Source of the DNA: a virus
IMG/VR virus record: IMGVR_UViG_3300043446_002312
Span: 1-54,786 of that record
Strand: one strand, 5' to 3'
DNA length: 54,786 nucleotides
A program made the position numbers and the translations under genes. The notes beneath the pieces were generated by a model. The model was not told where the DNA came from. It made no database searches and saw only the letters and a list, made by a program, of their open reading frames with translations. The stretch's first letter is position 1. Each line of letters starts with the position of its first letter. Shown here one piece after another: positions 37,262 through 51,532 of this stretch.

Positions 37262-37262
37262 C

Positions 37263-37616: not shown

Positions 37617-37640
37617 ACAAATCCTATGACCATAGGTGTA

Positions 37641-37648: not shown

Positions 37649-37906
37649 TCAAAAGGTGCAGTCCCAGCAAAGTTTCCCGGGGTTTTCATCAAAGAGACCG
37701 AGATTTCGAGCTTCGTTGATTGCCTCCAGAACCTTCACATCGTTATTCAAACGTCGGTGAAGACGAAGACGCCACAGGGTGTATTCTCGGGCATTTCTGT
37801 CGGTAGGATCAGCGAGGTATTTCTGGTATTTGGTTTCGACTGTTTGAACAATGCCGATACCAACCTTCTCGATGAGGTGGTCAACTTTCTGAAGAGCCCG
37901 TGCCAT
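37649..37906 (-). CDS. Hypothetical helical protein
   Basis: 85 aa. VDHLIEKVGIGIVQTVETKY, REYTLWRLRLHRRLNNDVKV, ending GKLCWDCTF. Helical and basic; no named family. ATG overlaps the upstream stop (TAATG), so it is coupled to the coiled-coil gene. Confidence 0.65.
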   Translation of the reverse strand: MARALQKVDHLIEKVGIGIVQTVETKYQKYLADPTDRNAREYTLWRLRLHRRLNNDVKVLEAINEARNLGLFDENPGKLCWDCTF

Positions 37907-38712: not shown

Positions 38713-39266
38713 CAGATCGGGCGAATCGTTGCTCTCAGTTGGTCTGTGTTGACGTCGATGACTTCAACGTTAAACGAGTATAGGCTCTCAGGGTCGCTCA
38801 GTAAATGGAAGCTTCCTTCAAACCGATCACCATCCCGGGAGCGCAGATAGAAGTTTCCGGGGGTAGGCGGGGAGCAGAGTGCAATATTACCTGCAAACTC
38901 GGGGTTGGATTCCTCGATCGCTGTAACAAGTCTCTGGTAGATTGCGGAGGCTGCCGCCATCTCACTATCATTTGAAAACTGAGCTCTCAGTTCGCCTTCG
39001 ATCGCTTCAAGGCTGGCTGCAATTCCGGTGTCAAGCACGATCTCGAAAGTCGCGCCTTCTTCCCGAGTCAGAAAACAAACTTCCTCAGAGTCAAAGTTTA
39101 AGTCATCCGGGTCTTCAAACGCTTGAAAACCATGCTCCAGAAGCTCGTAGAAGGTGTCTTTGATTGTTTCCGCGTCGGGACCGCCGAGGTAGTTGGCGAT
39201 GGCGTGGAAAATCCGAGGGTTGGCAAGCAAACGCGCCACCGGGTAAATCAGCTGTTGTTCGTTCAT
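38712..39266 (-). CDS. Hypothetical protein
   Basis: 184 aa. LIYPVARLLANPRIFHAIAN, KDTFYELLEHGFQAFEDPDD, then TREEGATFEIVLDTGIAASL. Ends with an alternating beta pattern (DRFEGSFHLLSDPESLYSFN). A GGGTAAAA element lies 58 nt upstream, and a TATACT sequence lies within the leader. Function unknown. Confidence 0.65.
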   Translation of the reverse strand: MNEQQLIYPVARLLANPRIFHAIANYLGGPDAETIKDTFYELLEHGFQAFEDPDDLNFDSEEVCFLTREEGATFEIVLDTGIAASLEAIEGELRAQFSNDSEMAAASAIYQRLVTAIEESNPEFAGNIALCSPPTPGNFYLRSRDGDRFEGSFHLLSDPESLYSFNVEVIDVNTDQLRATIRPI

Positions 39267-39324
39267 TACAGTGCTCCGCCGAAGCAGTATAGCGATCGCG
39301 TCGTTTGGTAATCGTTTAGCATTG

Positions 39325-39332
39325 TTTTACCC
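39325..39332 (-). promoter_or_regulatory. GGGTAAAA element upstream of gene 38712-39266
   Basis: Minus-strand GGGTAAAA in the gap after the topoisomerase gene, 58 nt before the ATG at 39266. It is the rightmost copy of the set. Confidence 0.5.
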
Positions 39333-39337
39333 GGCAT

Positions 39338-41332
39338 TCACAGTTTGACTTCTTCAAGGTTGGCCACCTTGATTCCTTTTGCTCCAGGGCGACCTTGCTT
39401 CACAGTGCTGATGCTAAGCTCCACCTTCTTCTTGCGCGGGGAAACCCAGGGCACGGGGTAAGAGCCTTCACCAAGGTATACAAACTCGGCTTCGGCAGGT
39501 AACCAGAGCTTCCCCTTGCTAGTTGCTTTGCACAGGTCTTCACCACTCAGCACAACAGCCTTAAGTTGATCTTCCAGTTTGAAGACACAGAGGTATTTCC
39601 GCTGAGAAACTTCAGCTTCCCGTTTCGCAAGAGCCACAGGACCGTAGCCCGTGGAGATTGGGCCCTTGAAAGTTGCCCCAACTTTCTTCAAGAAGCCATC
39701 ATGGGTCATTAAAACCAATTTTTCTTTCGCGTCGACGACCATTGCACCCCGTGGGCCCTTGGCCTGCTCAACAACACCCTTCTTCAAATCAATCTTCAGG
39801 AACCGGGGCCTAGGGGGGGCGGGGGGCCTCTTCTGCCCTGCCCTCGGGCTGGCGGCCACGCTTCCAGCCGGAGGCTCCACCAGGGCGCTCCTGCGGGCCT
39901 CACCGTGGCGTTTGGCGAGCTCAGTGATCTGTGTGTACACCCACTTCTGGCGCACCTCTTTGTTCTTTACCAGCTCGTCAAGGGTCTTCAGGCGGTCCTC
40001 CAAGGTTTGCTTCTCGGTTTCCAGTTCAGCCTGGTCAAGACCTGTGAGTTGACGAAGGCGCATCTCAAGGATTGCCTCGGCTTGATCTCGAGTGAACTTG
40101 AACGGGCGGTCCACAAGGGCAACCAGAGCCTCCTTCTTTGATGCCGACTCCTTGATCTTCTTGATGATCGCATCAATCTTGTTGATGGCTTTGATGAAGC
40201 CAATCACGATCTCAAGACGCTGCTCAGTAAGGTCTAGCTCTTGGGAGAACTTTCGCTCCAGGCGAGCCATTCGCCACGAGAACCATTTCTGACAAATTTC
40301 AACTGGGCTGAGCTCGACGGGTCGCGTACCGTCAATAACCAGCGTTTTTGCTGAATAACGAGTGTCGAGATCGGTGTATGCGTAGAGTTGCTCAACCAGC
40401 TGCTCAGTTCCAACATTGGGCTTCGCAACAATCGTGACGCGGTCTCCGGTGAGATCAGACTCGTCGATAACTTCTGCGATTCCATCGAGTTTTCCTTTCT
40501 CTAGAGCGTCACGAACTTGTTCACCGAGTTTCTCAGGGTTGACCCCAGGCGGGAAATGCGTGAATGTAATTGTGAGGCGATCTTTTGCCTTGCCGCTTCG
40601 TTTCTGTACGCCTGTCTCGTGCTTAGCGCGGCAGCGAATGTTGCCAGAGCCTGTTTCTTTGTACCTCTTGAGTTCTTCGTCATTGACAATGTCGCATCCA
40701 GTCGGAAAGTCGGGGATTAGGAGTTCGCGTGCTTTCGCCTCCTTTGGCGCTTTGAACTCGCACGCAAGTTTGGTGGCCTCTACAACTGCTCGCAGAGAGT
40801 GGGGAGCCAGCTTCGTTGAGAACCCCACGGCAATACCTGTGTCGCCATTCAGCAACACCGAAGGAATCGCAGTGTTAAACCGCTCTGCCTCCTGACGGGA
40901 TCCGTCGTAGTTCGGCCTCGTTTCCCAGGTGGCTTTGTCCTGCAGAAGCAATTCAACAGCGGAGGGTCGCAGTTTACACTCGGTATAGCGAGCGGCTGCA
41001 GGGCCGTCAACGGTGCTACCGAAGTTTCCGTGACCGTCAACCCACGGAACGTTGTTGTTCCAGGTTGTGGCCATGTTGACCAGAGTGCCGTAGCAATCGC
41101 CGTGCGGGTGGTAGTAACCCATCGCAAGGCCAGTTACGCGGGCGCACTTCACATAGCGTTTGTCTGGCATCAACCCTTCCTCAAACATCGTCTGAAGGAC
41201 GCGACGCTGGGCTGGTTTCAAACCGTCATACATGTCTGGGATGGCTCGCCCAAGAAGGACGGCCATCGAGTAAGCCATGTAATCCTCCTTCATTTGGGAG
41301 GTTAGATTGGTCGTTGTAAGGTTTTCCGTCAT
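39338..41332 (-). CDS. DNA topoisomerase/gyrase subunit A-type protein
   Basis: 664 aa from the ATG at 41332 (MTENLTTTNLTSQMKEDYMA), which overlaps the upstream stop. Residues about 20-480 are the GyrA/ParC breakage-reunion domain: GLKPAQRRVLQTMFEEGLMP, HPHGDCYGTLVNM, catalytic Tyr116 in AAARYTECKL, GIAVGFSTKLAPHSLRAVVE. The C-terminal 140 residues are a short pinwheel-like domain. A GC-rich linker of about 30 residues (SVAASPRAGQKRPPAPPRPR) separates them. T4-type phages split topoisomerase II into subunits; the ATPase (GyrB-like) partner is not in this window. Relieves supercoiling in replication. Confidence 0.88.
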   Translation of the reverse strand: MTENLTTTNLTSQMKEDYMAYSMAVLLGRAIPDMYDGLKPAQRRVLQTMFEEGLMPDKRYVKCARVTGLAMGYYHPHGDCYGTLVNMATTWNNNVPWVDGHGNFGSTVDGPAAARYTECKLRPSAVELLLQDKATWETRPNYDGSRQEAERFNTAIPSVLLNGDTGIAVGFSTKLAPHSLRAVVEATKLACEFKAPKEAKARELLIPDFPTGCDIVNDEELKRYKETGSGNIRCRAKHETGVQKRSGKAKDRLTITFTHFPPGVNPEKLGEQVRDALEKGKLDGIAEVIDESDLTGDRVTIVAKPNVGTEQLVEQLYAYTDLDTRYSAKTLVIDGTRPVELSPVEICQKWFSWRMARLERKFSQELDLTEQRLEIVIGFIKAINKIDAIIKKIKESASKKEALVALVDRPFKFTRDQAEAILEMRLRQLTGLDQAELETEKQTLEDRLKTLDELVKNKEVRQKWVYTQITELAKRHGEARRSALVEPPAGSVAASPRAGQKRPPAPPRPRFLKIDLKKGVVEQAKGPRGAMVVDAKEKLVLMTHDGFLKKVGATFKGPISTGYGPVALAKREAEVSQRKYLCVFKLEDQLKAVVLSGEDLCKATSKGKLWLPAEAEFVYLGEGSYPVPWVSPRKKKVELSISTVKQGRPGAKGIKVANLEEVKL

Positions 41333-41598
41333 TCGGCCTTCGGTAGAGAGCGAATTCGCTCGATCAAGGTGTCTACAGCGTCCACTGTGCAAAACCGAAT
41401 CACATCGTTGGTGATCTCAGTTTCGTACGTCAGGTGCGCGTGCTTGCCCTCATTATGGCTCAGGACGGCCACTTCGTAAAGCGCATTCTCGCCGATCTCG
41501 TATTCAGGGATAACAGAGATTCCGTAACCGTTGTCAAACAGCTCCTTATGCTGGAGTCCAAGAGGATGGGGGAAGAGTTTAAGATCTTCGAGTTTCAT
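41329..41598 (-). CDS. Small hypothetical protein
   Basis: 89 aa: MKLEDLKLFPHPLGLQHKEL, DNGYGISVIPEYEIGENALY, then VTYETEIT-like TYETEITNDVIRFCTVDAVD. Short alpha/beta protein; resembles conserved phage hypotheticals but I cannot name a family. Coupled to both neighbours through 4-nt overlaps, directly upstream of the topoisomerase gene. Confidence 0.7.
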   Translation of the reverse strand: MKLEDLKLFPHPLGLQHKELFDNGYGISVIPEYEIGENALYEVAVLSHNEGKHAHLTYETEITNDVIRFCTVDAVDTLIERIRSLPKAE

Positions 41599-41801
41599 TC
41601 TTCAAAAAGCTGTGCGTATTCTTCTTCGGTGACATTGTCTTCGATCTCACCGATTAGTTCTTCGTCGGTGTAACTGCCGATGTAATCTAGTTGGATATCA
41701 GCGAAGAACCGTTCAAGGTCTCGAGTAGACATTCCATCCAGGTAGCGTTCAACGAGCCATTCCACAAGATAGGAACGCTTTTCGGGGGATAATCCAGTCA
41801 T
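41595..41801 (-). CDS. Small acidic hypothetical protein
   Basis: 68 aa: SPEKRSYLVEWLVERYLDGM, STRDLERFFADIQLDYIGSY, TDEELIGEIEDNVTEEEYAQ. All-helical, acidic C-terminus. Overlaps both neighbours by 1-4 nt. Function unknown. Confidence 0.68.
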   Translation of the reverse strand: MTGLSPEKRSYLVEWLVERYLDGMSTRDLERFFADIQLDYIGSYTDEELIGEIEDNVTEEEYAQLFEE

Positions 41802-41965
41802 CAGTAGTTAGAAACAGTGGTGAAAATAGTGCCAGTATGGTTGTAACGGAGATCCACATCGCACTGGTACTCTTCACTCAAGTCGTACGCAAGATCGTAT
41901 GCACGATCAAGGTCAGTCGTAGTGTTTTCCCAGGGAGCAGCGGGACAGATCACGTCGATTCGCAT
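41801..41965 (-). CDS. Small hypothetical protein
   Basis: 54 aa, read directly. ATG at 41965, with GAGAG upstream; stop overlaps the next ATG (TGATG). Sequence begins MRIDVICPAAPWENTTTDLD and includes AYDLSEEYQCDVDLRYNHTG. Function unknown. Confidence 0.62.
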   Translation of the reverse strand: MRIDVICPAAPWENTTTDLDRAYDLAYDLSEEYQCDVDLRYNHTGTIFTTVSNY

Positions 41966-41981
41966 AAGGTTCTCTCTTGTC

Positions 41982-42314
41982 TCAGTTAGCCTTCAGAACC
42001 AGGCGGTCGGCAGAGGTGCCAACGCGGAACGCACCGTTCCAGAGGTAAGCACCCCAGAAGTAGGGATCCTTACCGGAAACATTCTGAAACTCGGCGGTAA
42101 TCGAGCCGTACTGCTCTTGACGATCAACCTCAAACTCCAGGTCACGCAGGTTGCGAACTCCGAAGAACTCCTTCAGGTCTTGCAGTTTGCTGAAGTACAG
42201 GTCGCCGACTTTGAACCCAACGAAACGGTTGGCATCGGTCAGGTCTGCGCCTTTGCGAACGTAGCCGGCTTTGACGACTTGGCCGGCGGTGAGGTTGGAA
42301 ACGGTTTTCTTCAT
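41982..42314 (-). CDS. Hypothetical protein, leaderless gene
   Basis: 110 aa: MKKTVSNLTAGQVVKAGYVR, DANRFVGFKVGDLYFSKLQD, QEQYGSITAEFQNVSGKDPY, AFRVGTSADRLVLKAN. Beta-rich, no family known to me. The gene is preceded at zero distance by the 44-nt promoter block, so its mRNA should be leaderless. Confidence 0.72.
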   Translation of the reverse strand: MKKTVSNLTAGQVVKAGYVRKGADLTDANRFVGFKVGDLYFSKLQDLKEFFGVRNLRDLEFEVDRQEQYGSITAEFQNVSGKDPYFWGAYLWNGAFRVGTSADRLVLKAN

Positions 42315-42355
42315 GTAATTACTATAGCGCCTTTTGCCCGTTTTCGAAAGGGGGC
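42312..42355 (-). promoter_or_regulatory. 44-nt leaderless promoter block P1
   Basis: Minus strand: GCCCCCTTT at the 5' end, GCAAAA in the spacer (weak -35 at 42344-42349), -10 TATAGT (42321-42326), 6 nt, then ATG. Aligns without gaps to the blocks at 48280, 48617 and 51021. Confidence 0.7.
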
Positions 42356-42370
42356 AGGCCGAACTATACG

Positions 42371-42388
42371 GTTCGGGTATCCGAACTC
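42371..42388 (-). terminator. Hairpin after the kinase gene
   Basis: Minus sense GTTCGG-ATAC-CCGAAC, a perfect 6-bp stem two nt after the stop. No U-tract is seen; it may terminate or protect the 3' end before promoter block P1. Confidence 0.45.
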
Positions 42389-42389
42389 C

Positions 42390-42869
42390 TCACTCGTTAA
42401 CCAGCACAGCGTGCTTGTATTTATTGCGCAGGTTCAGTATGCGTGTTGCCATACCTTTTTGCCACGATTCACTTTGTGCTTCCCCTCTGCCAGCGTGACG
42501 TTTTGCCAACTCTTTCTCACTCACAGTGACAACAATTAACTCCATGTCGCCGTATTCAAACATAGCATCTAGGTTGGGATTGTTGCTCAAGCGTTCACCT
42601 TCTCCTAGTATAGTCCAGTCCGGGTGAGACTGCGACATTGAGGCCAACCACTCTCTGAATTTAGGACCTACACCTTTGCTCCACCTGTCTGTACCGCTAA
42701 AAACTTGCTCGTCGTATATGCCCAGCACGATTGTCTTCGATGTTTCAAATTTATGGTAAACCACCAAACCTTCTTTCACCAAGGTTGACTCACCTAGGGA
42801 CTTCATACGCTCACGCATCAAGGTGCTTTTACCAACCCCAGGACGTCCAATGTAGTACTGAATTTTCAT
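42390..42869 (-). CDS. P-loop kinase, 5-hydroxymethyl-dU DNA kinase-like
   Basis: 159 aa from the second ATG at 42869, which has AGGAGA 6 nt upstream. The P-loop GRPGVGKST spans residues 8-16 (Lys14). The C-terminal half reads ILGEGERLSNNPNLDAMF, then SEKELAKRHAGRGEAQSESW, then GMATRILNLRNKY. That order (EG.R...., R..RG..Q, K....KI.NL) is the pattern I know from phage P-loop kinases that phosphorylate 5-hydroxymethyl-dU in DNA as the first step of thymine hypermodification. The helical partner domain sometimes fused to it is absent. Adjacent to the pyrophosphorylase-like gene. Confidence 0.62.
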   Translation of the reverse strand: MKIQYYIGRPGVGKSTLMRERMKSLGESTLVKEGLVVYHKFETSKTIVLGIYDEQVFSGTDRWSKGVGPKFREWLASMSQSHPDWTILGEGERLSNNPNLDAMFEYGDMELIVVTVSEKELAKRHAGRGEAQSESWQKGMATRILNLRNKYKHAVLVNE

Positions 42870-42902
42870 GAACATTCTCCTTGTTTGAGATAAAGAATTA
42901 CG

Positions 42903-42914
42903 CGCTCTAGAGCG
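42903..42914. promoter_or_regulatory. Palindrome in the leader of the kinase gene
   Basis: Perfect 12-nt palindrome CGCTCTAGAGCG in the transcribed leader, 34 nt before the kinase start codon. It could be an operator or a leader hairpin. Confidence 0.4.
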
Positions 42915-42948
42915 GAAACTGTGTCGCCACGACTACGATTACATTGAC

Positions 42949-42977
42949 AGTATAGCCCGCTTTAGCCTACGTGTAAA
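42949..42977 (-). promoter_or_regulatory. Promoter upstream of the kinase gene
   Basis: Minus strand: -35 TTTACA (42972-42977), 17-nt spacer, -10 TATACT (42949-42954). Unlike the leaderless set it leaves a leader of about 75 nt with AAGGAGA. Just after the -10 lies ATGTAA, a start directly followed by a stop. The promoter abuts the stop of gene 42985-44049. Confidence 0.65.
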
Positions 42978-42984
42978 GGTCGGG

Positions 42985-44049
42985 TTACCGAACCGGGTAG
43001 TGGAAAGTGCCAGAATCATGGAACAGAAACATTTTCTGTTTGTCCACGATAGCCCCCTCGGGAGCCAGTAGATCCCCTATTACCTCTTTTCGTGCCTGAT
43101 GCAAAACCTTCCACTCAATGCCTTGCCAACCGTCTTTCTCTGCTTGAGAGATTTCTTCTGACTGTCTATCCAGGTAATAACCCATGTACCGACCCTTCTT
43201 AGTCCGGAACAATTTTTTGTAGGAGCACAGGCAAGTTTCCAGAGAGAAGTTGTCTATGTGACTGGCCAGGTGTGGATGACGCATTTTGCTCTCTCGAAGC
43301 ACCTCCGCCCCAAATCCTTCCAACCAATCATACTCAGTTGCAGTAAGTTTCTGATTGACCCACTCGTCTTTGCCGGCTGCGAAGCACAAACCATTTCGGT
43401 GACTTTTGCTTCCTGAATAGTCGTTGAGGAAGAGTGTTGGACACTCCAAAGGTATGCCGCAGGTGTGCTTTAAAGTTTGTAGGTAAAAGAACGCCGTGTA
43501 CCTTCCAAACTTGTACCAGCTACCTTTGACAATGTTCCACAGTTTAGCAAAGTTTTCTTCTGGTGATCCTAAACAAATGGCGTTAAACTTGCTATACTGA
43601 CTGCGACCCCGAAGCCAATCCTGATAAGACTCATACATGGCAGGGAGGTGCCCCTTACTCCACTTCGTGTCGACTTGATATCGAAGGCGAGGGTAGTTTT
43701 CGTTATTCCACTTTGTAAACCTCTCAACAGAGGCCAATTCTTCATCGGGGAACTCTTGCTTGTAGACCCAAGCTGTGGGTAAGTTGTATGTGTGATACAG
43801 CCAAGCGAACCACAATTTTTCCTCGACGCTGTGCTCGTATCGCTGATTTAAATAGTTCATCAACCACAACGCAGGGTCGCAGTCTCCGTTCTCAACCGAC
43901 CAAGCGTACCATCGAATAAAACCTTCCCGCCTGTTCCCTAACTCACGGTAATCATGACCAACGTTCTCTTCATCTGCACGGGTAACATCAACCGCAGCGC
44001 CTCTGCTCACGTTATTCTCGAGGCCCATAGTTCTGCTCATAAAGTTCAA
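42985..44049 (-). CDS. Putative amino acid:DNA transferase (aGPT pyrophosphorylase-like)
   Basis: 354 aa from the ATG at 44049 or 347 from ATG 44028. Contains RREGFIRWYAWSVENGDCDP, LWFAWLYHTYNLPTAWVYKQ, WSKGHLPAMYESYQDWLRG, GSWYKFGRYTAFFYLQTLK and RYMGYYLDRQSEEISQAEKD. The central part looks like a DNA-glycosylase-type helical (HhH) fold, and the whole resembles the alpha-glutamyl/putrescinyl-thymine pyrophosphorylases, which replace a pyrophosphate on hydroxymethyl-dU with an amine. This assignment is from memory of the family and from the adjacent kinase, not proven. About 95 nt of its 5' end overlap the opposite-strand phosphatase gene, so the true start is uncertain. Confidence 0.5.
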   Translation of the reverse strand: MNFMSRTMGLENNVSRGAAVDVTRADEENVGHDYRELGNRREGFIRWYAWSVENGDCDPALWLMNYLNQRYEHSVEEKLWFAWLYHTYNLPTAWVYKQEFPDEELASVERFTKWNNENYPRLRYQVDTKWSKGHLPAMYESYQDWLRGRSQYSKFNAICLGSPEENFAKLWNIVKGSWYKFGRYTAFFYLQTLKHTCGIPLECPTLFLNDYSGSKSHRNGLCFAAGKDEWVNQKLTATEYDWLEGFGAEVLRESKMRHPHLASHIDNFSLETCLCSYKKLFRTKKGRYMGYYLDRQSEEISQAEKDGWQGIEWKVLHQARKEVIGDLLAPEGAIVDKQKMFLFHDSGTFHYPVR

Positions 44050-44361
44050 TCATGTGGTACGGGTAAGGTGGCTCCTTCGCATCGTAAGATCCCGAGAAAA
44101 ATGCGAGAAGTTTTGGAGAATCTTGGATACTATCCGCACAACCATCGTTCCCAAGGCATATCGGCAGATTTGCTGGATTGGGCGGACGTCATCGTCTGCA
44201 TGGGCAATGTTCACGAAAAGTATATGACTGTGCACTACCCGCAGCACTGCCACAAAGTGACAAATTGGCTTGTAGATGACCCTCACTTTGCTGTTGGCAC
44301 AGAAAAACATTACTCCGTTGCCAAACAGATCGAAGAGCTCGTTCTCAGCCGATTTTGTTGA
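43954..44361 (+). CDS. Low-molecular-weight protein tyrosine phosphatase-like protein
   Basis: 135 aa, the only recognised gene on the plus strand. VLFICTGNINRSASAHVIL is the CX5R signature P-loop (Cys8, Arg14) of LMW phosphatases, and LVDDPHF near residue 107 is the general-acid Asp-Pro loop. Length is slightly short of the usual 150 aa. It overlaps antisense with the start of gene 42985-44049 and with the last 17 nt of the amidoligase gene. Family members remove phosphate from tyrosine or small phosphorylated molecules; the substrate here is unknown. Its strand suggests later insertion or separate regulation. Confidence 0.85.
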   Translation: MTNVLFICTGNINRSASAHVILEAHSSAHKVQSCGTGKVAPSHRKIPRKMREVLENLGYYPHNHRSQGISADLLDWADVIVCMGNVHEKYMTVHYPQHCHKVTNWLVDDPHFAVGTEKHYSVAKQIEELVLSRFC

Positions 44362-45283
44362 TCCACTCTTCAACTTGCTTCGCAGAGCATTGCTCTAGGT
44401 TCAAGTCTTTTCTCATGTTGTTTAACCGTTCTGTAACAACTTTGCGCGAGTTTTTATCAAAATTAGTATATTGATAACCAACCTCCATGCTGTGGTTGTA
44501 AGGCAAAAATGTCGGAAATTGGTAATTGTATGCATTCACTATCTCACTAGGTGGTGGATTATCCCAGACTCGAGTCATAAACTCAAACACCCAAACAAAG
44601 CAAGAAGTGATTTCAAAAGAGTCGAGGGTGTTAGTAAAGTGACGGAATTCCACCGTGTCTGTTTCTTTCAACTGCAGCAAATTGATACCTGCCCGTGTTG
44701 TCAAACCCCAGGCGGGTTCGCCATACTTGTCTTGAGGGGCGTGTGCAGCCAGGAACTCCTCTACCGATGCCGCGTTCAAAGCTCGCTCAACCCTGTCTCG
44801 AGGTACAGCATACTGGTGTGAAACTTTGCGGCGGCGGTAACGTTTCATCGCACCTTGGTACTCCTTTTTTGTTTCAAACTGGTCACGGCACGGAACGGGA
44901 ATCGGCTCAATTGCTTCATAAATTGCGTTCTGATTTTCATCAACATACCGCAGCAGAGTTTTCAACGCTTTCAGGTCTTCGGACAACCCTGGGACACGAA
45001 CATGCAAATGCAGGTTCGTACGGTAATTCAGTTGCGGCCCGATACCTGCAGCCATCAAAGCATCAAAGAAGTCGACTTGCTCTGCAATTGTTTCCGTCGG
45101 TCGTGAGTTAATTTCACCACCTTTTGTGTACAACAACCCTTTAGGGTCGTTGGCGATGCCCGTCGAACTCACGATCGAGTAATCTTTTTTGTTCCAACTT
45201 AGACCATCGGGCAGCTTTGCTTTGCGATCGATGTCACCGTACTCGTATTCCGCACCGAACGTAATTTTCTTGGGATCAATCAC
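44345..45283 (-). CDS. Amidoligase (Amidoligase_2-like, glutamine synthetase fold)
   Basis: 312 aa, GTG start at 45283 overlapping the amidotransferase stop (GTGA). Shows family features: ITFGAEYEYGDI near the N-terminus, YTKGGEINSRPTETIAEQVD, NYRTNLHLHVRVPGLSED, TRAGINLLQLKETDTVEFRH, FTNTLDSFEI. These match COOH-NH2 ligases of the Amidoligase_2 group, which use ATP to join a carboxylate and an amine. The upstream neighbour is a glutamine amidotransferase, a known pairing for this family. Within the island it may amidate or extend an amino acid attached to DNA; a peptide or small-molecule substrate is possible. Confidence 0.8.
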   Translation of the reverse strand: MIDPKKITFGAEYEYGDIDRKAKLPDGLSWNKKDYSIVSSTGIANDPKGLLYTKGGEINSRPTETIAEQVDFFDALMAAGIGPQLNYRTNLHLHVRVPGLSEDLKALKTLLRYVDENQNAIYEAIEPIPVPCRDQFETKKEYQGAMKRYRRRKVSHQYAVPRDRVERALNAASVEEFLAAHAPQDKYGEPAWGLTTRAGINLLQLKETDTVEFRHFTNTLDSFEITSCFVWVFEFMTRVWDNPPPSEIVNAYNYQFPTFLPYNHSMEVGYQYTNFDKNSRKVVTERLNNMRKDLNLEQCSAKQVEEWINKIG

Positions 45284-45942
45284 GGCACAAGCTCCTTAAC
45301 CTCAATAATTTTATGCAAAGTGTGGGGCCGATAAACGATTCCTGGCTCGCAGCGTTTTGCGCCTTGCAAGCCGGCCCTGCGAGCAATATCTGCTGTACTA
45401 CAGATAAACCACCCGTTCTCAACTTTGACCTGATAGAGAGGGCGTTTCCCGTTACGGTACCAAGCCAAACCTTCTTTCGCATGCAGTTCGGTCACGGCCA
45501 TGCTTGCTTCAGAGAATTCTTCAAGGGGTTGCTTACCTACATGCCGCGCTTGGTACAGCAATTCAGAGTCGTTACACGTGGTTAGTTCGTAACCGTATTC
45601 TTCCCAGTATACTGGGCTCCTTTGATCTACCACCCCGTTATGAGCTATTGCCAGGTCGTCAAAAACCTGGATTGGTTGGTTATATTCGAGGTCGGAAGTT
45701 GAGTAGCGAGTGTGCCCGATCAGTTGCAAAAGGTGGTCGCCTGGTTGAACCTCCGCAAAGTGCATTCGAATAAACCACTCAGCCGAGATTGGCGCCTTGC
45801 GAGTAATGACCTTGTTGTTTTGAACTAACGAATAGCCCGTTGCATGCTTACCTCGAATGCGAGACTCATAGAATAAACGCTTGAGCGTTTCGATTTGTTG
45901 TCGAGAGGGGCTCTCAAGATAAGCCCCGACGATGCCACACAT
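45280..45942 (-). CDS. Class II glutamine amidotransferase
   Basis: 220 aa. Starts MCGIVGAYLE: Cys2 is the N-terminal nucleophile after removal of Met. RGKHATGYSLV, IGHTRYST, IAHNGVV and the NDSE segment (CNDSELLYQA) are the class II (GlmS/PurF-type) glutaminase motifs. No synthase domain follows, so it supplies ammonia to a partner, most likely the amidoligase with which it is coupled by a 4-nt overlap. The ATG overlaps the dioxygenase stop (TAATG). Confidence 0.88.
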   Translation of the reverse strand: MCGIVGAYLESPSRQQIETLKRLFYESRIRGKHATGYSLVQNNKVITRKAPISAEWFIRMHFAEVQPGDHLLQLIGHTRYSTSDLEYNQPIQVFDDLAIAHNGVVDQRSPVYWEEYGYELTTCNDSELLYQARHVGKQPLEEFSEASMAVTELHAKEGLAWYRNGKRPLYQVKVENGWFICSTADIARRAGLQGAKRCEPGIVYRPHTLHKIIEVKELVP

Positions 45943-47366
45943 TAGTTTTCGGTATACCAGTAGTTCGTTCGAGAAGCTTGCGGACAGTGCCTAGCCCGGT
46001 ACTCGTCCCACTCATCACTTACCCACATGGAAGGGAAGACACCACTAAATTTGCCACCGTCATTTTTACGGTAGCGGTCTTCATACTGCTTTTGAGAGTA
46101 AGCGATGAACTCTTTGCGGCAGCACTCAGCTTGATAATCGTCGAGCTTAGCCATGCCATCACGGGCGTAGAACACCAGTACAACACTCTCAGCGGTTCCG
46201 GTTTTATCTACAAACTCGGTCTGCCCATGCACTCGGTTGCAGTTGTCTCCTACGAAGAAATCCCCATGACGAAGGTTAAAGGCTAAACGGAACTCTCCCA
46301 TAACAAAATACTGGCCGTCATACTTCTCTCCATCGTGTTTTTCGTTGGTGATGTTCGTTAGAACAGCAACACCGCGAGGGTTGTTCTTACCGTCCAGGTG
46401 CCAAAAGGTGGAGAAATTGTGGTTGATTGTAATAGTCGAGAAAGTTTTAGTTCCCAGAAGGGTGTAACGATCATCCTTACAATCTTTCATCACATTGTGG
46501 ATGTAATTCCACTCCTCCGGCATTGTTTCTTTGTACAAGTCGGATGCTTGCTGATACAACGCTTGATGAGCAACAAAATCATCATAGCGTTTTTGGGTGG
46601 TGGCAGACAGCCTTCCAAAAGGGTTCCGAGCAGAGCGATCCATGAACCCCAGGATGTTACTGTAGACTTTGTTTGCCCTGGTTTGAATGCTTACAAAGTT
46701 TTTATAGGACTTAGCTGCATAAGCGATCTGATCCTCAGCAGTTGCCCACAACTCCAACCAATTGTCAAACCACTCTTGACGCAGCTGATCCCGTTCAGCC
46801 AAGACTGCTTCTTTTTCAGCCTGTGGGGTTTTCTTCTTGCGGGCAATAGATTCCAGTTCAAGAATCCGGTCTTTGTTGACCAGTCCGGAATCTAAAATCT
46901 TTTTAACGTACAGTGAAAACCGTGCGAAGCCGGTGTGCTTGGAGACGAGGTCCTGGGCCTCCTGCAGCGTCGTGATGTTACCCTTGGCTGCTTCCCGGAA
47001 GAAAGCCACTTGGCCATTGGTCAGGCGGGCAGAGGTGTCTGTAGTGAGCTCTTTACCCCCTACCAGGCCTCGTTGGTCAGAGTAGAGATCTTTGCTGACC
47101 CATTTCCAGAAGTTATAACTTTCAGAGTTTGCCTCAATTTTAGTGACTTCGGAGAGAGCACTCTTCAAGAATACAATTGCCCTCTTACCGTTCAAGTATA
47201 CGATTGTATTTCCGTCGATAACTCGATCGTAGTCCTCTTCGGTAGGACGATCCCCGAGACGCTCTTTCTCGAAGGGGAACATTTCGTCAAATTCTATAAC
47301 CTCGCACTCGTAACTTCCAGTACAAGTTTGAATGGTTTCTGTCTTGGTCAAAGTGGATGTGGCCAT
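45942..47366 (-). CDS. TET/JBP-like 2OG-Fe(II) dioxygenase
   Basis: 474 aa from the ATG at 47366, with GAGAGG 4-5 nt upstream; an upstream ATG at 47390 lies in the promoter -10 and is rejected. The C-terminal double-stranded beta-helix shows HxD in NFSTFWHLDGKN (His323, Asp325), a distal His in NCNRVHGQTEF (His380) and the 2OG-binding Arg in VVLVFYAR (Arg402). The order, spacing and DQRGLVGGKELT (97-108) fit TET/JBP enzymes, which hydroxylate the methyl group of thymine or 5-methylcytosine in DNA. Residues about 110-290 are helical and specific. First gene of the dioxygenase-amidotransferase-amidoligase operon. Confidence 0.75.
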   Translation of the reverse strand: MATSTLTKTETIQTCTGSYECEVIEFDEMFPFEKERLGDRPTEEDYDRVIDGNTIVYLNGKRAIVFLKSALSEVTKIEANSESYNFWKWVSKDLYSDQRGLVGGKELTTDTSARLTNGQVAFFREAAKGNITTLQEAQDLVSKHTGFARFSLYVKKILDSGLVNKDRILELESIARKKKTPQAEKEAVLAERDQLRQEWFDNWLELWATAEDQIAYAAKSYKNFVSIQTRANKVYSNILGFMDRSARNPFGRLSATTQKRYDDFVAHQALYQQASDLYKETMPEEWNYIHNVMKDCKDDRYTLLGTKTFSTITINHNFSTFWHLDGKNNPRGVAVLTNITNEKHDGEKYDGQYFVMGEFRLAFNLRHGDFFVGDNCNRVHGQTEFVDKTGTAESVVLVFYARDGMAKLDDYQAECCRKEFIAYSQKQYEDRYRKNDGGKFSGVFPSMWVSDEWDEYRARHCPQASRTNYWYTEN

Positions 47367-47385
47367 GGTTCCTCTCGTTTTGGTA

Positions 47386-47413
47386 AGCATAGACTAGGCG
47401 CCACCGGTGTAAA
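47386..47413 (-). promoter_or_regulatory. Promoter of the dioxygenase operon
   Basis: Minus strand: -35 TTTACA (47408-47413), 16-nt spacer, -10 TATGCT (47386-47391), then 19 nt with GAGAGG before the ATG. This transcript has a leader with a ribosome-binding site, unlike blocks P1-P4. Confidence 0.68.
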
Positions 47414-47430
47414 CTCAGGGGTGGCCCTGA
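47413..47430 (-). terminator. Hairpin after the SprT-like gene
   Basis: Minus sense CTCAGG-GCCACC-CCTGAG, directly after the stop and overlapping the -35 of the next promoter by one base. No U-tract. May end or protect the upstream mRNA. Confidence 0.5.
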
Positions 47431-47431
47431 G

Positions 47432-48034
47432 TCACTGGTGGTACTCGTACTTGGTATCAAACGCAGCTCGAATTATAGACTGGAGTCTGCGGGCCATGTC
47501 CAGGTCTTTGCCACAGTAGATTGTAGTCTTGAGCAAGTCGCTGTAGACTTCGGGCTCGTCTTTGGTGACGGGGACGTCGTAGAAGTTGACTCGGTAGGCC
47601 ACACCCAAGTCTGCACACTTGGCGTTGATTCGGCTTGCTTCTGCAATGAAGTTGGGGCCATGGCCCTTGATTCCGTCGTCACGATTCGTTTGATCAAGGT
47701 AAGCGTGAACCATTTCGTGCAGCAGCGTGCTGCGAACCTGAATCGGGTCGTCAGCACACCTCCGGGCGATCTTGATTTCACCCGTCCCACGGTTGTTCAG
47801 TTTATATGTTCCCCATTTCGTTTTATAGCGACCTTCCCACTTCAGCGTCGGGTATTTCCTCCACGTTTCCCCGTTCTCGTCTACACGCTCGATTACTCGA
47901 AGAACTCGAAGATTTCCGTCGAAATACTTCGCATTGAATTCGGCATACAGCTCACCGAGATCAAACATTACAGTTGGATCGGGGCAGAACCGCTTGAAGA
48001 ATTTGTTAGAAACAGTTGTTTTGAATTCGGTCAT
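47432..48034 (-). CDS. SprT-like zinc metalloprotease
   Basis: 200 aa. HEMVH at 106-110 with a third ligand candidate His125 (GIKGHGPNF) is the SprT-family arrangement; LGELYAEFNAKYFDGNLR near the N-terminus is also typical. In cells SprT/Spartan proteases degrade proteins crosslinked to DNA; the phage role is unknown. The usual zinc-ribbon tail is missing. ATG overlaps the upstream stop (TGATG). Confidence 0.85.
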   Translation of the reverse strand: MTEFKTTVSNKFFKRFCPDPTVMFDLGELYAEFNAKYFDGNLRVLRVIERVDENGETWRKYPTLKWEGRYKTKWGTYKLNNRGTGEIKIARRCADDPIQVRSTLLHEMVHAYLDQTNRDDGIKGHGPNFIAEASRINAKCADLGVAYRVNFYDVPVTKDEPEVYSDLLKTTIYCGKDLDMARRLQSIIRAAFDTKYEYHQ

Positions 48035-48282
48035 CAGTCGCGAGCGGAAGTGGGTTGAGCGGCGTAAAAGCCTTCGAGCTCACCAAACGTGGCGACGAGG
48101 CAGTTTTCTTCCAGCGAGAAAGTTGTAACAACTTTGCGGCCTTTGCGGTAGAAGTTGTATTCGGTGTACCACTTCTTGTAGGCTTTGCCTTGGTTGTCCC
48201 AGGCTTGGTGCCAGAGGGTGTTGCGGCCCACCTGGTAGGTCCTGCCGGAGAAGGGTGAGGTGTAGCTAGTGATGTTTTCCAT
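48034..48282 (-). CDS. Hypothetical protein, leaderless gene
   Basis: 82 aa: MENITSYTSPFSGRTYQVGR, YKKWYTEYNFYRKGRKVVTT, FSLEENCLVATFGELEGFYA. Small beta-rich protein, no family recognised. The promoter block at 48280-48323 ends in its start codon. The SprT-like gene follows in the same mRNA. Confidence 0.7.
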   Translation of the reverse strand: MENITSYTSPFSGRTYQVGRNTLWHQAWDNQGKAYKKWYTEYNFYRKGRKVVTTFSLEENCLVATFGELEGFYAAQPTSARD

Positions 48283-48323
48283 GCCTTAATTATGGCTCAT
48301 TTTGCTGCGTTTGTAAAGGGGGC
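48280..48323 (-). promoter_or_regulatory. 44-nt leaderless promoter block P2
   Basis: Minus strand: -35 TTTACA (48312-48317), 17-nt spacer with GCAAAA, -10 CATAAT (48289-48294), 6 nt, then ATG. Upstream lies a GGGGC-GGTTT-GCCCC hairpin. Confidence 0.78.
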
Positions 48324-48355
48324 AAACCGCCCCTCCGAGGTACGGTTAACCGCCC

Positions 48356-48619
48356 TCACATCCACCAGCCGATCTCGCGAACGCCATCCATCTGCTCCAG
48401 CTGGTAATCGTGGAAGGTTTCGCAAATTTCACTAATGGAAGCCCCGACCGGAAGTTCATCACGGCAGATGACATAAACTTCAGCATACAGGAGGTCAAAA
48501 GATTCTTTGTCGGCGTCGTAACCGGCGTAGCAAGCGTCATTAAGAAGCTCCGAGTGAAGCTGGATGCTGGCGGCGAGGGCTTTCTGAGAGGTGGCCAGGG
48601 GGAAGGCGGTTTTGTTCAT
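48356..48619 (-). CDS. Hypothetical protein, leaderless gene
   Basis: 87 aa: AFPLATSQKALAASIQLHSE, DKESFDLLYAEVYVICRDEL, SEICETFHDYQLEQMDGVRE, ending IGWWM. Helical. No family known to me. Directly downstream of promoter block P3. Confidence 0.68.
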   Translation of the reverse strand: MNKTAFPLATSQKALAASIQLHSELLNDACYAGYDADKESFDLLYAEVYVICRDELPVGASISEICETFHDYQLEQMDGVREIGWWM

Positions 48620-48660
48620 GCTATAACTATAGCTGGTTTTGGCACGAAAGTAAAGGGGGC
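48617..48660 (-). promoter_or_regulatory. 44-nt leaderless promoter block P3
   Basis: Minus strand: -35 TTTACT (48649-48654), 17-nt spacer with CAAAA, -10 TATAGT (48626-48631), 6 nt, then ATG. Hairpin-forming GGGGGCGGTTTGCCCCC lies just upstream. Confidence 0.78.
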
Positions 48661-48690
48661 AAACCGCCCCCTCAGGTACGGGAAACCGCC

Positions 48691-48918
48691 CTAGGCCAGC
48701 TTGGATTCGGGTTCGTTGAACTGATCCAGCAACTCTGGAGCGTAATCTTCAGCCAGGTCCCACAGATCCGTCCAGTCTTGCCAAACGATATGTTCGTAGT
48801 GCATATCCCAAACAGCTTGACGAATCTGTTCTAGCGTCATCTGAGCGACCACTCCATCTACGATTGTAGAAACAATCTCGTCGCGGTCCTCTTCAATCCA
48901 CTCGGTTGGTCGATTCAT
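48691..48918 (-). CDS. Small acidic hypothetical protein
   Basis: 75 aa: MNRPTEWIEEDRDEIVSTIV, LEQIRQAVWDMHYEHIVWQD, DLAEDYAPELLDQFNEPESK. Acidic, helical, Trp-rich. Coupled to the upstream 51-aa gene by a 4-nt overlap. Function unknown. Confidence 0.65.
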   Translation of the reverse strand: MNRPTEWIEEDRDEIVSTIVDGVVAQMTLEQIRQAVWDMHYEHIVWQDWTDLWDLAEDYAPELLDQFNEPESKLA

Positions 48919-49070
48919 ATGCCTTGCTCTCTGACTTGAGAGTAAATGGTGTTAATGAAGATTTGGCCTGCTAAGTAACCGTAATACAGACCTCTTTCCT
49001 TCAGTTTTTCGATCTCTTTCTCGGTAAACTGAGAGTCAATAAAAGCTTCTCGAGATTCTTGCGGAGTCAC
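48915..49070 (-). CDS. Small hypothetical protein with GTG start
   Basis: 51 aa, read directly. GTG at 49070 overlaps the upstream stop (GTGA) and its stop overlaps the next ATG (ATGA). Sequence TPQESREAFIDSQFTEKEIE, then KLKERGLYYGYLAGQIFINT, then IYSQVREQGI. A short helical peptide; coupling on both sides supports it. Confidence 0.6.
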   Translation of the reverse strand: MTPQESREAFIDSQFTEKEIEKLKERGLYYGYLAGQIFINTIYSQVREQGI

Positions 49071-49357
49071 ATCAAAGCCCCGTAATCAAATCTGGATTGC
49101 TGAATCAAGGCGACTCTGTACAGCACTAAGTACCCAATCAGGTCCGAGATCACATCTTCGTCTTCGTCGTTCTGGGCATTCCTCAGCCGAGAAAGTTTAT
49201 CGTCCAGGCGAACTTTGATCTGCTCAAGGGTGCTTGCTTTGCTAAAGACTCGGACCGGATTCAAGGCGGAGTCCCCGTATTTACGGTTCTTTTCGAGAAG
49301 TAGTTCGCGTATATCGTCGCAAACCTGGGCTATGTCTTGTTGGGACTGACTGATCAT
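49067..49357 (-). CDS. DUF1599/Nmad1-like protein
   Basis: 96 aa. ELLLEKNRKYGDSALNPVRV, FSKASTLEQIKVRLDDKLSR, then DVISDLIGYLVLYRVALI. This is the pattern of DUF1599, which I recall being renamed nucleotide modification associated domain 1, in the MazG-like all-alpha group. Such proteins may act on modified nucleotides. Its presence 2 kb from the base-modification island fits, but the function is inferred only. Confidence 0.7.
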   Translation of the reverse strand: MISQSQQDIAQVCDDIRELLLEKNRKYGDSALNPVRVFSKASTLEQIKVRLDDKLSRLRNAQNDEDEDVISDLIGYLVLYRVALIQQSRFDYGALM

Positions 49358-49497
49358 TGCTGAGGCAGAATTGAACGGTAGTATGCTTGGTAACGGGCGA
49401 ATCTGTGGACGGAAGGCTCAAACCCCAGCGACCAGCAACATTCACAGTAGGAGAGAAACTCGAACCACGGAGTTGTTGGATCTAAGGCAGGCTTCAC
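49354..49497 (-). CDS. Small hypothetical protein with GTG start
   Basis: 47 aa, read directly. GTG at 49497 overlaps the upstream stop (GTGA); its stop overlaps the next ATG. KPALDPTTPWFEFLSYCECC, then WSLGFEPSVHRFARYQAYYR. Cys- and aromatic-rich. Function unknown. Confidence 0.55.
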   Translation of the reverse strand: MKPALDPTTPWFEFLSYCECCWSLGFEPSVHRFARYQAYYRSILPQQ

Positions 49498-49706
49498 AGT
49501 TTTCCACCAACCACGCTATCATAGCTTTTGCTACTGTCTGGAAACCCGTCCTGCTCAGCTTTCAGGTACCACCGTGTTGCTTCCACACACTGATCCTCGG
49601 AGAGGGAAGTGATTAGCGATTTTCCATTCTTATCCACAGAGACAAAAGTTCCCCAGCGTTGTTTCTTGATGTAGAAACAGTCGTCAATCAGTGTTTCCTC
49701 AATCAT
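49494..49706 (-). CDS. Small hypothetical protein
   Basis: 70 aa from the ATG at 49706 (GGAG 5 nt upstream). MIEETLIDDCFYIKKQRWGT, FVSVDKNGKSLITSLSEDQC, VEATRWYLKAEQDGF. A beta hairpin followed by a helix; same general plan as gene 48034-48282. Overlaps the upstream gene by 8 nt. Confidence 0.65.
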   Translation of the reverse strand: MIEETLIDDCFYIKKQRWGTFVSVDKNGKSLITSLSEDQCVEATRWYLKAEQDGFPDSSKSYDSVVGGKL

Positions 49707-50055
49707 GCTGTCTCCAGTCGCTTTCTTTGTCTTGTCGGAACCATTCAGCCAAATCCACAGGGTTCTGTGGGCCAATTAGGTGATTGGTAGGGTCAGGGTC
49801 GCCCAGGTCCATCCCGTCGAGAAGTTCATCCAGTGAGCCTCTTTCGGGCTCGCCGTTGATTGCCCGACGCCGCGCCCTCCTTAGAATTTCAGCAGCCGAG
49901 CGGTTCGCATTCGCCCATTTCTGGGCAAATTGCATTTCTTCGAAGGAGACGCTCAAACCACCCGAAATGCGAGCGGCAATGTCTTCAAGGCGAATCCGTG
50001 TTTGAGTTGAGAGCATTTTGCTTTTCCCGTTGGATAATTTTACCTCAGTAGTCAT
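49699..50055 (-). CDS. Hypothetical protein
   Basis: 118 aa. Starts MTTEVKLSNGKSKMLSTQTR; the middle is basic and helical (NRSAAEILRRARRRAINGEP), the end acidic and Trp-containing. I have seen similar starts in cyanophage hypotheticals but cannot name a family. Overlaps neighbours on both sides. Confidence 0.65.
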   Translation of the reverse strand: MTTEVKLSNGKSKMLSTQTRIRLEDIAARISGGLSVSFEEMQFAQKWANANRSAAEILRRARRRAINGEPERGSLDELLDGMDLGDPDPTNHLIGPQNPVDLAEWFRQDKESDWRQHD

Positions 50056-50666
50056 TTTGCTTGGTTTGCGGCTTCAAAAGCGTCACGGAAACCTTCCCAA
50101 CGAAGTTCGTACTCACCTGTGCCGTACTCCCCGTACTTCTCGTAGTAGGCTTTCAGTGCTGGAGACAGTGAGTACTTTACGCAGTAATCCTCGTAGAGAT
50201 CGGTTAATTTCTTCTCTACACTTTCAAAGAGTCTCACTGCGTCAAAATCTGTAACTGCAGGGGCAAGACCCTCATGGAATTCCTGAATGAGGTCCAAAGA
50301 TTCATGAAGAAACCCAACCTCATCCTCGGTCAGCCTTAAGGTAATCTCTCCTTGCTCGTAGCTGGGCGTTAACTCTTCTTCCAGTTCCGCGTCAGTCATG
50401 ACTGGGCTCAAACTCGTCAAATACTGCGCCACTTCTTTGCTTTGCTCTTTGATGTTTTTTTGCGCTCTTGCCATCGCGATTCCTTTGGCGAGGTAACCCC
50501 AGTCGCGCACTTCGGTAACGGGTTTTGTTTTACCGCAAACCTCACATCGCCCTTCATAACTGCTTGAGCAACCGACAGAATACTTGCCGTACGCCTGACC
50601 GCAATCTTTGCAGACGACGTCAGCTTGGGTCAACCTTGTGAGCAGGTCTTCACTTAGAGTTTTCAT
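50052..50666 (-). CDS. Zinc-ribbon hypothetical protein
   Basis: 204 aa from the ATG at 50666, overlapping the upstream stop. Residues about 18-46 hold CKDCG and CEVCG, a two-CxxC zinc ribbon. The remainder is acidic and helical (EDEVGFLHESLDLIQEFHEG; FESVEKKLTDLYEDYCVKYS). Could bind nucleic acid or protein; function unknown. Confidence 0.7.
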   Translation of the reverse strand: MKTLSEDLLTRLTQADVVCKDCGQAYGKYSVGCSSSYEGRCEVCGKTKPVTEVRDWGYLAKGIAMARAQKNIKEQSKEVAQYLTSLSPVMTDAELEEELTPSYEQGEITLRLTEDEVGFLHESLDLIQEFHEGLAPAVTDFDAVRLFESVEKKLTDLYEDYCVKYSLSPALKAYYEKYGEYGTGEYELRWEGFRDAFEAANQAK

Positions 50667-50818
50667 CGTTCTTGTTCTTTGAGTTGGTCGTAGTAGTACG
50701 GAAAAAGTTTCGTGAGAATGCGATCGCAGGCGTTGTAAGTCTTTCCGCCAACTTTGCAATCTTCGAGTTGATATCGACGGACCATCTGGTGAAGCAGACG
50801 GTATTCTTCTCTAGTCAT
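50663..50818 (-). CDS. Small hypothetical protein
   Basis: 51 aa from the ATG at 50818, inside the end of the upstream gene. TREEYRLLHQMVRRYQLEDC, KVGGKTYNACDRILTKLFPY. Basic, helical. An upstream start is rejected because it would overlap the previous gene by 110 nt. Confidence 0.6.
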   Translation of the reverse strand: MTREEYRLLHQMVRRYQLEDCKVGGKTYNACDRILTKLFPYYYDQLKEQER

Positions 50819-51023
50819 TTTCAGGCAGGATAAAGTCAATGTCAGAGGCGATTGCGTTGAGAATCGCGGTCTCTTCCCACAGCAGAGTGCCGTAGTCGCG
50901 GGAACCCTTCTCGCAGGCACGATTGCACTCGTGGGTCAGATTGTGCGCCTCGTTGCGGAGGGCTTGGATCACACGCTCCCAATCGGCGCGGCAGAGGGTG
51001 AAGGTGTAGAGGTCGTTTTCCAT
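50811..51023 (-). CDS. Small hypothetical protein, leaderless gene
   Basis: 70 aa: MENDLYTFTLCRADWERVIQ, ALRNEAHNLTHECNRACEKG, TLLWEETAILNAIASDIDFI. Cys/His-containing helical protein. Promoter block P4 ends in its start codon. Confidence 0.68.
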   Translation of the reverse strand: MENDLYTFTLCRADWERVIQALRNEAHNLTHECNRACEKGSRDYGTLLWEETAILNAIASDIDFILPEND

Positions 51024-51064
51024 GCTTTAACTATAGCGCCTTTTGCCCCGGAAGCAAAGGGGGC
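51021..51064 (-). promoter_or_regulatory. 44-nt leaderless promoter block P4
   Basis: Minus strand: -35 TTTGCT (51053-51058), 17-nt spacer with GCAAAA, -10 TATAGT (51030-51035), 6 nt, then ATG. Follows the stop of gene 51076-51240 with a GGGCGGTTTGCCC hairpin between. Confidence 0.78.
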
Positions 51065-51075
51065 AAACCGCCCTG

Positions 51076-51240
51076 TTAGGTAGGGGAAACCGTACCTCGC
51101 AAGGGGCCATCGCCTTTACCTTCCAGAGACTTTACAAGCAACTCGGTAAATTTTTCTTGGGCGTCAGCGTCGTACGCCATCATATTGTCGTTCAGCTCTC
51201 GAAGTAATTCGGTCAGATCCTTCCACTCCTCTTGCTCCAC
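51076..51240 (-). CDS. Small hypothetical protein with GTG start
   Basis: 54 aa, read directly. GTG at 51240 with TTGAGGA 7 nt upstream. EQEEWKDLTELLRELNDNMM, AYDADAQEKFTELLVKSLEG. The last codons extend into the repeat region upstream of P4. Function unknown. Confidence 0.58.
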   Translation of the reverse strand: MEQEEWKDLTELLRELNDNMMAYDADAQEKFTELLVKSLEGKGDGPLRGTVSPT

Positions 51241-51253
51241 GTTGCGTCCTCAA

Positions 51254-51532
51254 TTAAAAAACATCGTTTGGTGTGAATACTAGGCTAACGTCTGCTGCCC
51301 ACTCCACGATTCTATCCCCCAAGTCAAGTGCTTCCTCCGGGGATAAAAGGATCTCCTCAAAGTCACCATACTCAGACCGCCGCCCCAGAATATAGCGAGC
51401 AGCGTGTACAACTCGCTTCCAGAATGGCAACGGGCTTAGGTGTATTTCGATAAACAGGTCCTCGGTGTCCGAGGTAACTACGAGCGAATGCTGAATACTT
51501 CCGCAGCGGCAAAGGTATAGCGTTCGCTTCAT
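51254..51532 (-). CDS. Small hypothetical protein
   Basis: 92 aa. N-terminus MKRTLYLCRCGSIQHSLVVT with CxC, middle PFWKRVVHAARYILGRRSEY, end EALDLGDRIVEWAADVSLVF. Alternating beta and helix; no family. Start overlaps the HAD gene stop. Confidence 0.66.
   Translation of the reverse strand: MKRTLYLCRCGSIQHSLVVTSDTEDLFIEIHLSPLPFWKRVVHAARYILGRRSEYGDFEEILLSPEEALDLGDRIVEWAADVSLVFTPNDVF

Follow-up and report, generated by a model that had tools for sequence, protein, structure and literature searches.

Six adjacent genes in the virus record IMGVR_UViG_3300043446_002312 (54,786 nucleotides, all of which is referred to below as the window) form an island which, to judge from its gene neighbourhoods, is a functional unit and not a chance assembly, and which very probably is an operon for thymine hypermodification. 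The model that we favour, and on balance think probable as a whole, is a post-replicative one in which thymine would be oxidized in DNA before any other step.

Gene content of the island

All six open reading frames were found intact at positions 42390–47390 in the list of ORFs of the record, and their families are those that an initial annotation of the sequence had guessed. Five of the proteins exceed curated HMM cut-offs, and the amidoligase was assigned through its relatives and a structural model. The genes, with one neighbour, are as follows.

45942–47390, minus strand: TET/JBP-family 2OG-Fe(II) dioxygenase (TET), 482 aa, PF12851
45280–45942, minus strand: class-II glutamine amidotransferase (GAT-II), 220 aa, PF13522, PurF-like glutaminase
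44345–45283, minus strand: GS-fold carboxylate-amine ligase (amidoligase_2 group), 312 aa, predicted from relatives and an AF2 model
43954–44361, plus strand: LMW phosphatase, 135 aa, PF01451
42985–44010, minus strand: ADDT, amino acid:DNA transferase (aGPT-PPlase clade 2), PF18724, phrog_3271
42390–42875, minus strand: P-loop nucleotide kinase 3 family, 161 aa, PF18751
47432–48034, minus strand: SprT-like metallopeptidase adjoining TET, PF10263 (7.8e-13)

The minus-strand order is thus TET, GAT-II, amidoligase, ADDT, kinase, with the phosphatase on the plus strand between amidoligase and ADDT. The SprT-like metallopeptidase, which neighbours TET only in close relatives and in S-CBWM1, is probably outside the pathway. 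A promoter scan of the island gave a signal no higher than that of shuffled sequences.

Catalytic residues and structural model

The TET protein matched Tet_JBP (PF12851) with an E-value of 1.6e-14 (53.9 bits, cut-off 34.9), and 95% or more of 107 homologues keep its iron ligands, H331-x-D333 and H388. GAT-II matched GATase_6 (PF13522; 2.2e-8, 34.6 bits, cut-off 27) and had purF as its top NCBIfam model (3.6e-10); C2, the N-terminal cysteine nucleophile, R79, N102-G103 and D125 are kept in at least 95% of 117 homologues. The LMW phosphatase, 59–96% identical to its relatives, matched LMWPc (PF01451) at 5e-16 and has a conserved C8-X5-R14 loop and general-acid D109-P110. The kinase matched PF18751 above the cut-off (1.6e-11), and Walker A is present in 143 of 145 homologues.

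ADDT matched PF18724 (2.8e-20) and phrog_3271 (1e-59); the profile search that had been proposed as a check on the 354-aa protein therefore placed it in the ADDT family and not in an unrelated one. That 354-aa frame is the longest ADDT ORF and starts with TTG at 44049; the 5′ end of the phosphatase gene overlaps it. An overlap analysis showed that its first 32 codons have the evolution pattern of the phosphatase, not of ADDT. An in-frame GTG at 44010 is conserved, and we give it as the putative, still uncertain, start.

The amidoligase by itself gave a weak profile match (phrog_2443, 0.005), and a sequence-profile search of solved structures with it yielded nothing useful. Amidoligase_2 (PF12224) was matched by 35 of 39 aligned, diverse relatives, at best with 7.5e-9. 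Structure prediction, which the initial annotation had recommended, gave a glutamine synthetase-like fold: in the AlphaFold2 model (pLDDT 95.4) the top Foldseek alignments were to glutamine synthetase, glutamate-cysteine ligase, YbdK, PafA and Dop, with weak E-values, and VIA-align gave Z scores of 8–9.5 to GS, GCS, YbdK and PafA (up to 9.5, with an rmsd of 4.7 over 219 residues). Residues E12, E14, E57, H92, H94, E212 and R214 are invariant or almost so. According to the model, then, the protein is a glutamine-synthetase-fold carboxylate-amine ligase.

Conservation of the gene order

The island is kept in close relatives, mostly at 91–98% identity (GAT-II 71%, SprT 80%), and is retained in more distant ones at 59–75% for most genes, with GAT-II and TET lower in one of them. 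IMG/VR contigs with as little as 59% amino-acid identity show the same neighbourhood. Profile-guided scans of IMG/VR, with amidoligase, ADDT and GAT-II as seeds, returned more than 200 loci; with these seeds the sample leans towards the closest relatives, and many of its contigs are incomplete. The order TET-GAT-amidoligase-ADDT-kinase was found in 67 of the 69 IMG/VR loci that have all five genes, TET being at the opposite end in the other two, and it was kept in 13 of 14 clusters when amidoligases were clustered at 70% identity. A recurring neighbourhood with a fixed order in more than 60 loci places the set far beyond chance. Families, catalytic residues and conserved order all agree with the DNA-base hypermodification pathway that had been proposed from the sequence.

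It is very improbable, in our view, that the substrate of GAT-II, amidoligase and phosphatase is a cell-wall component, a protein or a small molecule, and that their adjacency to TET, ADDT and kinase is incidental. There is precedent for such a role: amidoligase with GAT-II was previously known in LUZ24-like and OM43 phages, where a cell-wall or metabolite function was supposed (PMC3890496, PMC10580990), and in LUZ24-like phages, tf for one, amidoligase and GAT-II come with ATP-grasp and a GGCT-like gene and have no DNA-modification genes nearby (PMC3890496); cell-wall or superinfection roles have been proposed (PMC10580990). However, 28 of 32 independent amidoligase clusters have the kinase and an ADDT with them, two of the others lie beside deazaguanine genes, and the genes are interleaved in order. 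LUZ24-type amidoligases are too distant for tblastn detection, and unlike the LUZ24/phiEco32 cassette, with its ATP-grasp and GGCT-like partners, the island genes give no ATP-grasp or GGCT match.

Entry step and target base

Among 22 whole records, TET was found in 10 and a TS homologue in seven, and no record had both. Wherever the residue aligned with N177 of E. coli ThyA was readable in an operon TS homologue, it was Asn, as in uracil-type (dUMP) enzymes, whereas an aligned CMP hydroxymethylase has Asp. Since TET is exchanged for a dUMP-type TS homologue in these records and never found with one there, thymine/uracil is, on this indirect evidence, probably the base handled. From this pattern TET appears to replace dUMP hydroxymethylation, and it very probably is the source of 5-hydroxymethyluracil in DNA. 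Neither the window nor a 118-kb relative, both of which are fragments, gave a match to dUMP hydroxymethylase (PF00303), in line with the earlier proposal that the dioxygenase is the entry step. A search of positions 36001–54786 with a profile built from Simon-type members found no HMUDK_hel kinase; the resident kinase belongs to PF18751.

The initial annotation had named thymine or 5-methylcytosine as the target. The choice of thymine stands, and cytosine was dropped, on the exchange with dUMP-type TS homologues and on the absence of C5 cytosine methyltransferase (PF00145) from the window and from 10 related or compared records; the claim that the window lacks a DNA methyltransferase held for this family. 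Action of the dioxygenase on 5-methylcytosine, with cytosine as the decorated base, has in its favour that some operons carry the TET-associated glycosyltransferase PF20691, and that Burke 2021 reportedly describes phage TETs acting on 5mC, with glycosylation. It is nevertheless the least probable of the readings considered here, because sister operons have these downstream genes behind a dUMP-type TS homologue, and because ADDT and the hmdU kinases are families of the thymine pathway.

Proposed amination by GAT-II or FAD oxidase

An FAD oxidase (DAO) is limited to records of the TS type and never occurs together with GAT-II. Recombinant loci with TS and GAT-II but without DAO were found in two forms. 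One (L172/L075) has the order kinase, GAT-II, ADDT, phosphatase, amidoligase, with TS about 7 kb upstream; the other (L251) has the order GAT-II, ADDT, amidoligase, phosphatase, HD, kinase, HMUDK_hel, TS, in an otherwise Simon-like layout in which the HD label is a reading from sequence. A scan of bacterial genomes gave a single MAG contig, the recombinant locus L251. The mutual exclusion, together with the recombinants, indicates that GAT-II and DAO seem to do equivalent jobs; as the exclusion patterns are drawn from related phages and partial contigs, they represent few independent events, two GAT-II/TS recombinants and two QueF cases (below).

PaMx11 is reportedly among the phages studied for N-alpha-glycyl-thymine and 5-aminomethyl-dU, to judge from the title of Wen 2024, cited in PMC11946847. 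As PaMx11 has DAO and is reportedly a 5-aminomethyl-dU phage, the shared outcome of the two routes would be 5-aminomethyl-dU, which we give a little less than an even chance of being the intermediate here. The GAT-II route may be likened to PurF, in which ammonia from the glutaminase displaces pyrophosphate in PRPP. Gene fusions bearing on the ammonia route were sought, and none was informative. 5-Aminomethyluracil is listed among natural phage bases (PMC11550810).

Proposed acylation by the amidoligase

The PaMx11 operon reads ADDT-DAO-GNAT-kinase-HMUDK_hel-TS, and in phage Simon (ADDT-DAO-amidoligase-phosphatase-kinase-HMUDK_hel-TS) amidoligase and phosphatase take the place of the GNAT. In TET operons the GAT-II/ADDT slot holds amidoligase and phosphatase, amidoligase and GNAT, GNAT alone, or amidoligase and phosphatase with glycosyltransferases, one of which is of the TET-associated family PF20691. 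A GNAT is present in all 29 GAT-II loci without amidoligase. Among 111 amidoligase loci, phosphatase is present in 80, GNAT in 26 and both in none. The phosphatase thus goes with the amidoligase, and the idea of it as a partner of the kinase was dropped; its alternation with GNAT suggests a putative phosphatase step after the ligase.

Amidoligase also occurs without GAT-II, in the Simon-type (FAD-oxidase) operons. GAT-II and amidoligase are therefore not an obligate pair, and GAT-II belongs to the TET-ADDT-kinase core. Outside thymine operons, amidoligase lies beside QueF in Vibrio phage 2.275.O and, in locus L073, in the order QueF, a 99-aa protein, amidoligase, phosphatase, followed by a radical-SAM gene that we read as QueE. 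QueF makes 7-aminomethyl-7-deazaguanine. The common factor of the thymine-operon and QueF-linked amidoligases, as read from gene context, is an aminomethyl group on a base.

Because the amidoligase shares its slot with GNAT, it most likely acts on the same amine, and its place in the acetyltransferase slot speaks for an amine being acylated, not for a carboxylate being amidated. That this amine is the one of 5-aminomethyl-dU we regard as an even chance. GS-fold ligases habitually use the gamma-carboxyl of glutamate; by analogy gamma-glutamyl may be the donor, a specific guess that is more likely wrong than right.

The earlier suggestion that amidotransferase and amidoligase amidate or extend an added acid fits poorly with these arrangements. 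Stated fully, ADDT would attach an amino acid via its alpha-amine, and the amidoligase would amidate the free carboxylate with ammonia from GAT-II, or extend it, giving for example glycinamide or glutaminyl thymine. Two points count for this and against our own model: ADDT is named for the transfer of amino acids, not ammonia, and GAT-II, which directly precedes amidoligase in many loci, could serve the ligase where both occur. Joining of an amino acid to a base also has a precedent in CmoY, which links glycine to a base carboxylate (PMC12783734). We nevertheless hold this amino-acid route to be unlikely, since the 29 loci with GAT-II but no amidoligase all have a GNAT, amidoligase replaces the PaMx11 GNAT in FAD-oxidase operons that have no GAT-II, and the QueF encoded next to amidoligases provides an amine and not an acid.

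Proposed pathway

From the gene identities, intact catalytic residues, conserved order and substitution pattern we infer the chemical steps, substrates and product of our preferred model, thymine hypermodification by way of an aminomethyl group, as follows. TET would hydroxylate thymine in DNA to 5-hydroxymethyluracil, and the P-loop kinase would activate the hydroxyl as phosphate or pyrophosphate. ADDT would then displace the activated group with an amine nucleophile, the nitrogen being supplied by GAT-II through hydrolysis of glutamine, to leave 5-aminomethyl-dU, as in the PaMx11-type FAD-oxidase route. With ATP, the GS-fold amidoligase would join a carboxylate (by fold analogy the glutamate gamma-carboxyl or similar) to the amine, at the point where other operons use an acetyltransferase, and the LMW phosphatase would remove a phosphate connected with the ligase step.

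The class of base predicted in this way, offered tentatively, would carry on the thymine methyl an aminomethyl nitrogen that comes from glutamine, with pyrophosphate as the group displaced by ADDT. Acylation of this nitrogen by the GS-fold ligase would give an aminoacyl or gamma-glutamyl aminomethyluracil of isopeptide-like kind, and in other phages the cassette of ligase and phosphatase would serve again on 7-aminomethyl-7-deazaguanine. We know of no base of the acylated (perhaps aminoacylated) aminomethyl-thymine kind. Its purpose is presumably protection from restriction.

Comparison with known systems

Rhodococcus phage Tonitrus has a TET-ADDT-kinase trio published as a predicted thymidine hypermodification set (PMC11955845). 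Like the island it has TET, ADDT (PF18724) and P-loop kinase 3 (PF18751) in the same order and no nearby TS homologue; unlike the island, the region lacks GAT-II, amidoligase and LMW phosphatase. With this trio already published, it is the extended set that looks new. In Caulobacter phage Cr30, TET (30%), ADDT (27%) and a kinase homologue also lie within about 10 kb, but they are dispersed, GAT-II and amidoligase are missing and a TS gene is present as well.

PaMx11-type operons share ADDT, P-loop kinase and the amine-tailoring slot with the island. They differ in the entry through free nucleotide by a TS homologue (dUMP hydroxymethylase), in having HMUDK_hel, and in using FAD oxidase instead of GAT-II and acetyltransferase instead of amidoligase and phosphatase. 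Of the enzymes of the ViI/M6/PaMx11-type pathway, the island has ADDT; it has TET in place of dUMP hydroxymethylase, and its kinase is of PF18751 and not of the HMUDK_hel family. Phage Simon (PQ683277), the closest isolated phage carrying both amidoligase and phosphatase, resembles the island in these two proteins (40% and 33%, respectively) and in having a kinase and the ADDT family, but it has a TS homologue, HMUDK_hel and FAD oxidase, and lacks TET and GAT-II. The Simon record is unannotated, and its operon was identified in the present analysis.

CmoY, of the CmoA/CmoX/CmoY 5-carboxymethylcytosine-glycine system, is a proven case of amide ligation to a phage DNA base (PMC12783734). Like the island ligase as we propose it, CmoY makes an ATP-dependent amide bond on a phage DNA base; there, however, the base is cytosine and carries the carboxylate, and the ligase is an asparagine-synthetase homologue, not of GS fold. 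The island has no CmoXY-type cytosine C5 carboxymethyltransferase (C5-MTase fold), as judged by PF00145. Amidoligase combined with thymine hypermodification was not found in the literature searched, and an earlier description in Iyer 2013 or Lee 2022 is possible. The class of system is known, and the architecture of the island and its end product look new.

If the model is correct, the chemistry of phage genomes would gain oxidation of thymine within DNA, amination that depends on glutamine, and ligation by a GS-fold enzyme, and phage amidoligases and LMW phosphatases formerly unassigned or assigned to the cell wall would have a probable function. With interchangeable entry, amination and acylation modules, the function of each enzyme can be read from its replacement; several different new bases are predicted in uncultured phages, and the enzymes could become tools with which to put amines and amino acids onto DNA.

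Other features of the record

A near-DNA search of a phage collection with the record gave zero matches. The 684-aa protein encoded immediately downstream of the island is taken, from its sequence, as topoisomerase subunit A. The record encodes a family A DNA polymerase with a mitochondrial-type exonuclease, and a virion of contractile-tail type with Mu-type portal, protease and Gp36 proteins, a baseplate J protein and weak sheath matches.

Amidoligase-type operons in other viruses

A complete thymine hypermodification operon of the amidoligase type was identified in the unannotated genome of the sewage phage Simon, which is a useful experimental system. The island of a relative has two TET genes and, beyond the six genes, also encodes a group 1 glycosyltransferase and an ATP-grasp ligase of the R2K family (PF18299). 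A 437-aa protein of family c15, without any Pfam match, was found again in more than 20 operons that combine amidoligase with GNAT, and is a putative tailoring enzyme of these operons. Elsewhere amidoligases lie with QueF and other deazaguanine genes, which suggests phage DNA with acylated preQ1-type bases.

L001:8849-16528, operon of phage Simon (PQ683277.1)
L010:1877-10308, relative's island
L115:3328-4641, 437-aa protein
L073:7237-10283, amidoligase, deazaguanine genes including QueF, phosphatase
L002:9866-14126, amidoligase, deazaguanine genes including QueF and QueC, GAT-II

Gene boundaries and annotation

The LMW phosphatase gene and the ADDT ORF overlap in a head-to-head arrangement; among the compared loci the inverted form of the phosphatase gene is confined to the window's wider clade. 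Because substitutions among relatives in the overlap fit the phosphatase frame, the ADDT N-terminus given by the longest ORF appears to be spurious or short. PHROGs (phrog_800) and the records of PaMx11 and of mycobacteriophages label the P-loop DNA kinase terminase small subunit, a name that is probably wrong. SprT-like proteins immediately precede TET in the window and in Synechococcus phage S-CBWM1, whose record labels its copy transcription elongation protein.

Window 43954-44049, phosphatase (inverted)/ADDT overlap
L255:8284-8853, PaMx11 kinase (gp49)
Window 47432-48034, SprT-like protein
L003:2725-3342, S-CBWM1 SprT-like protein
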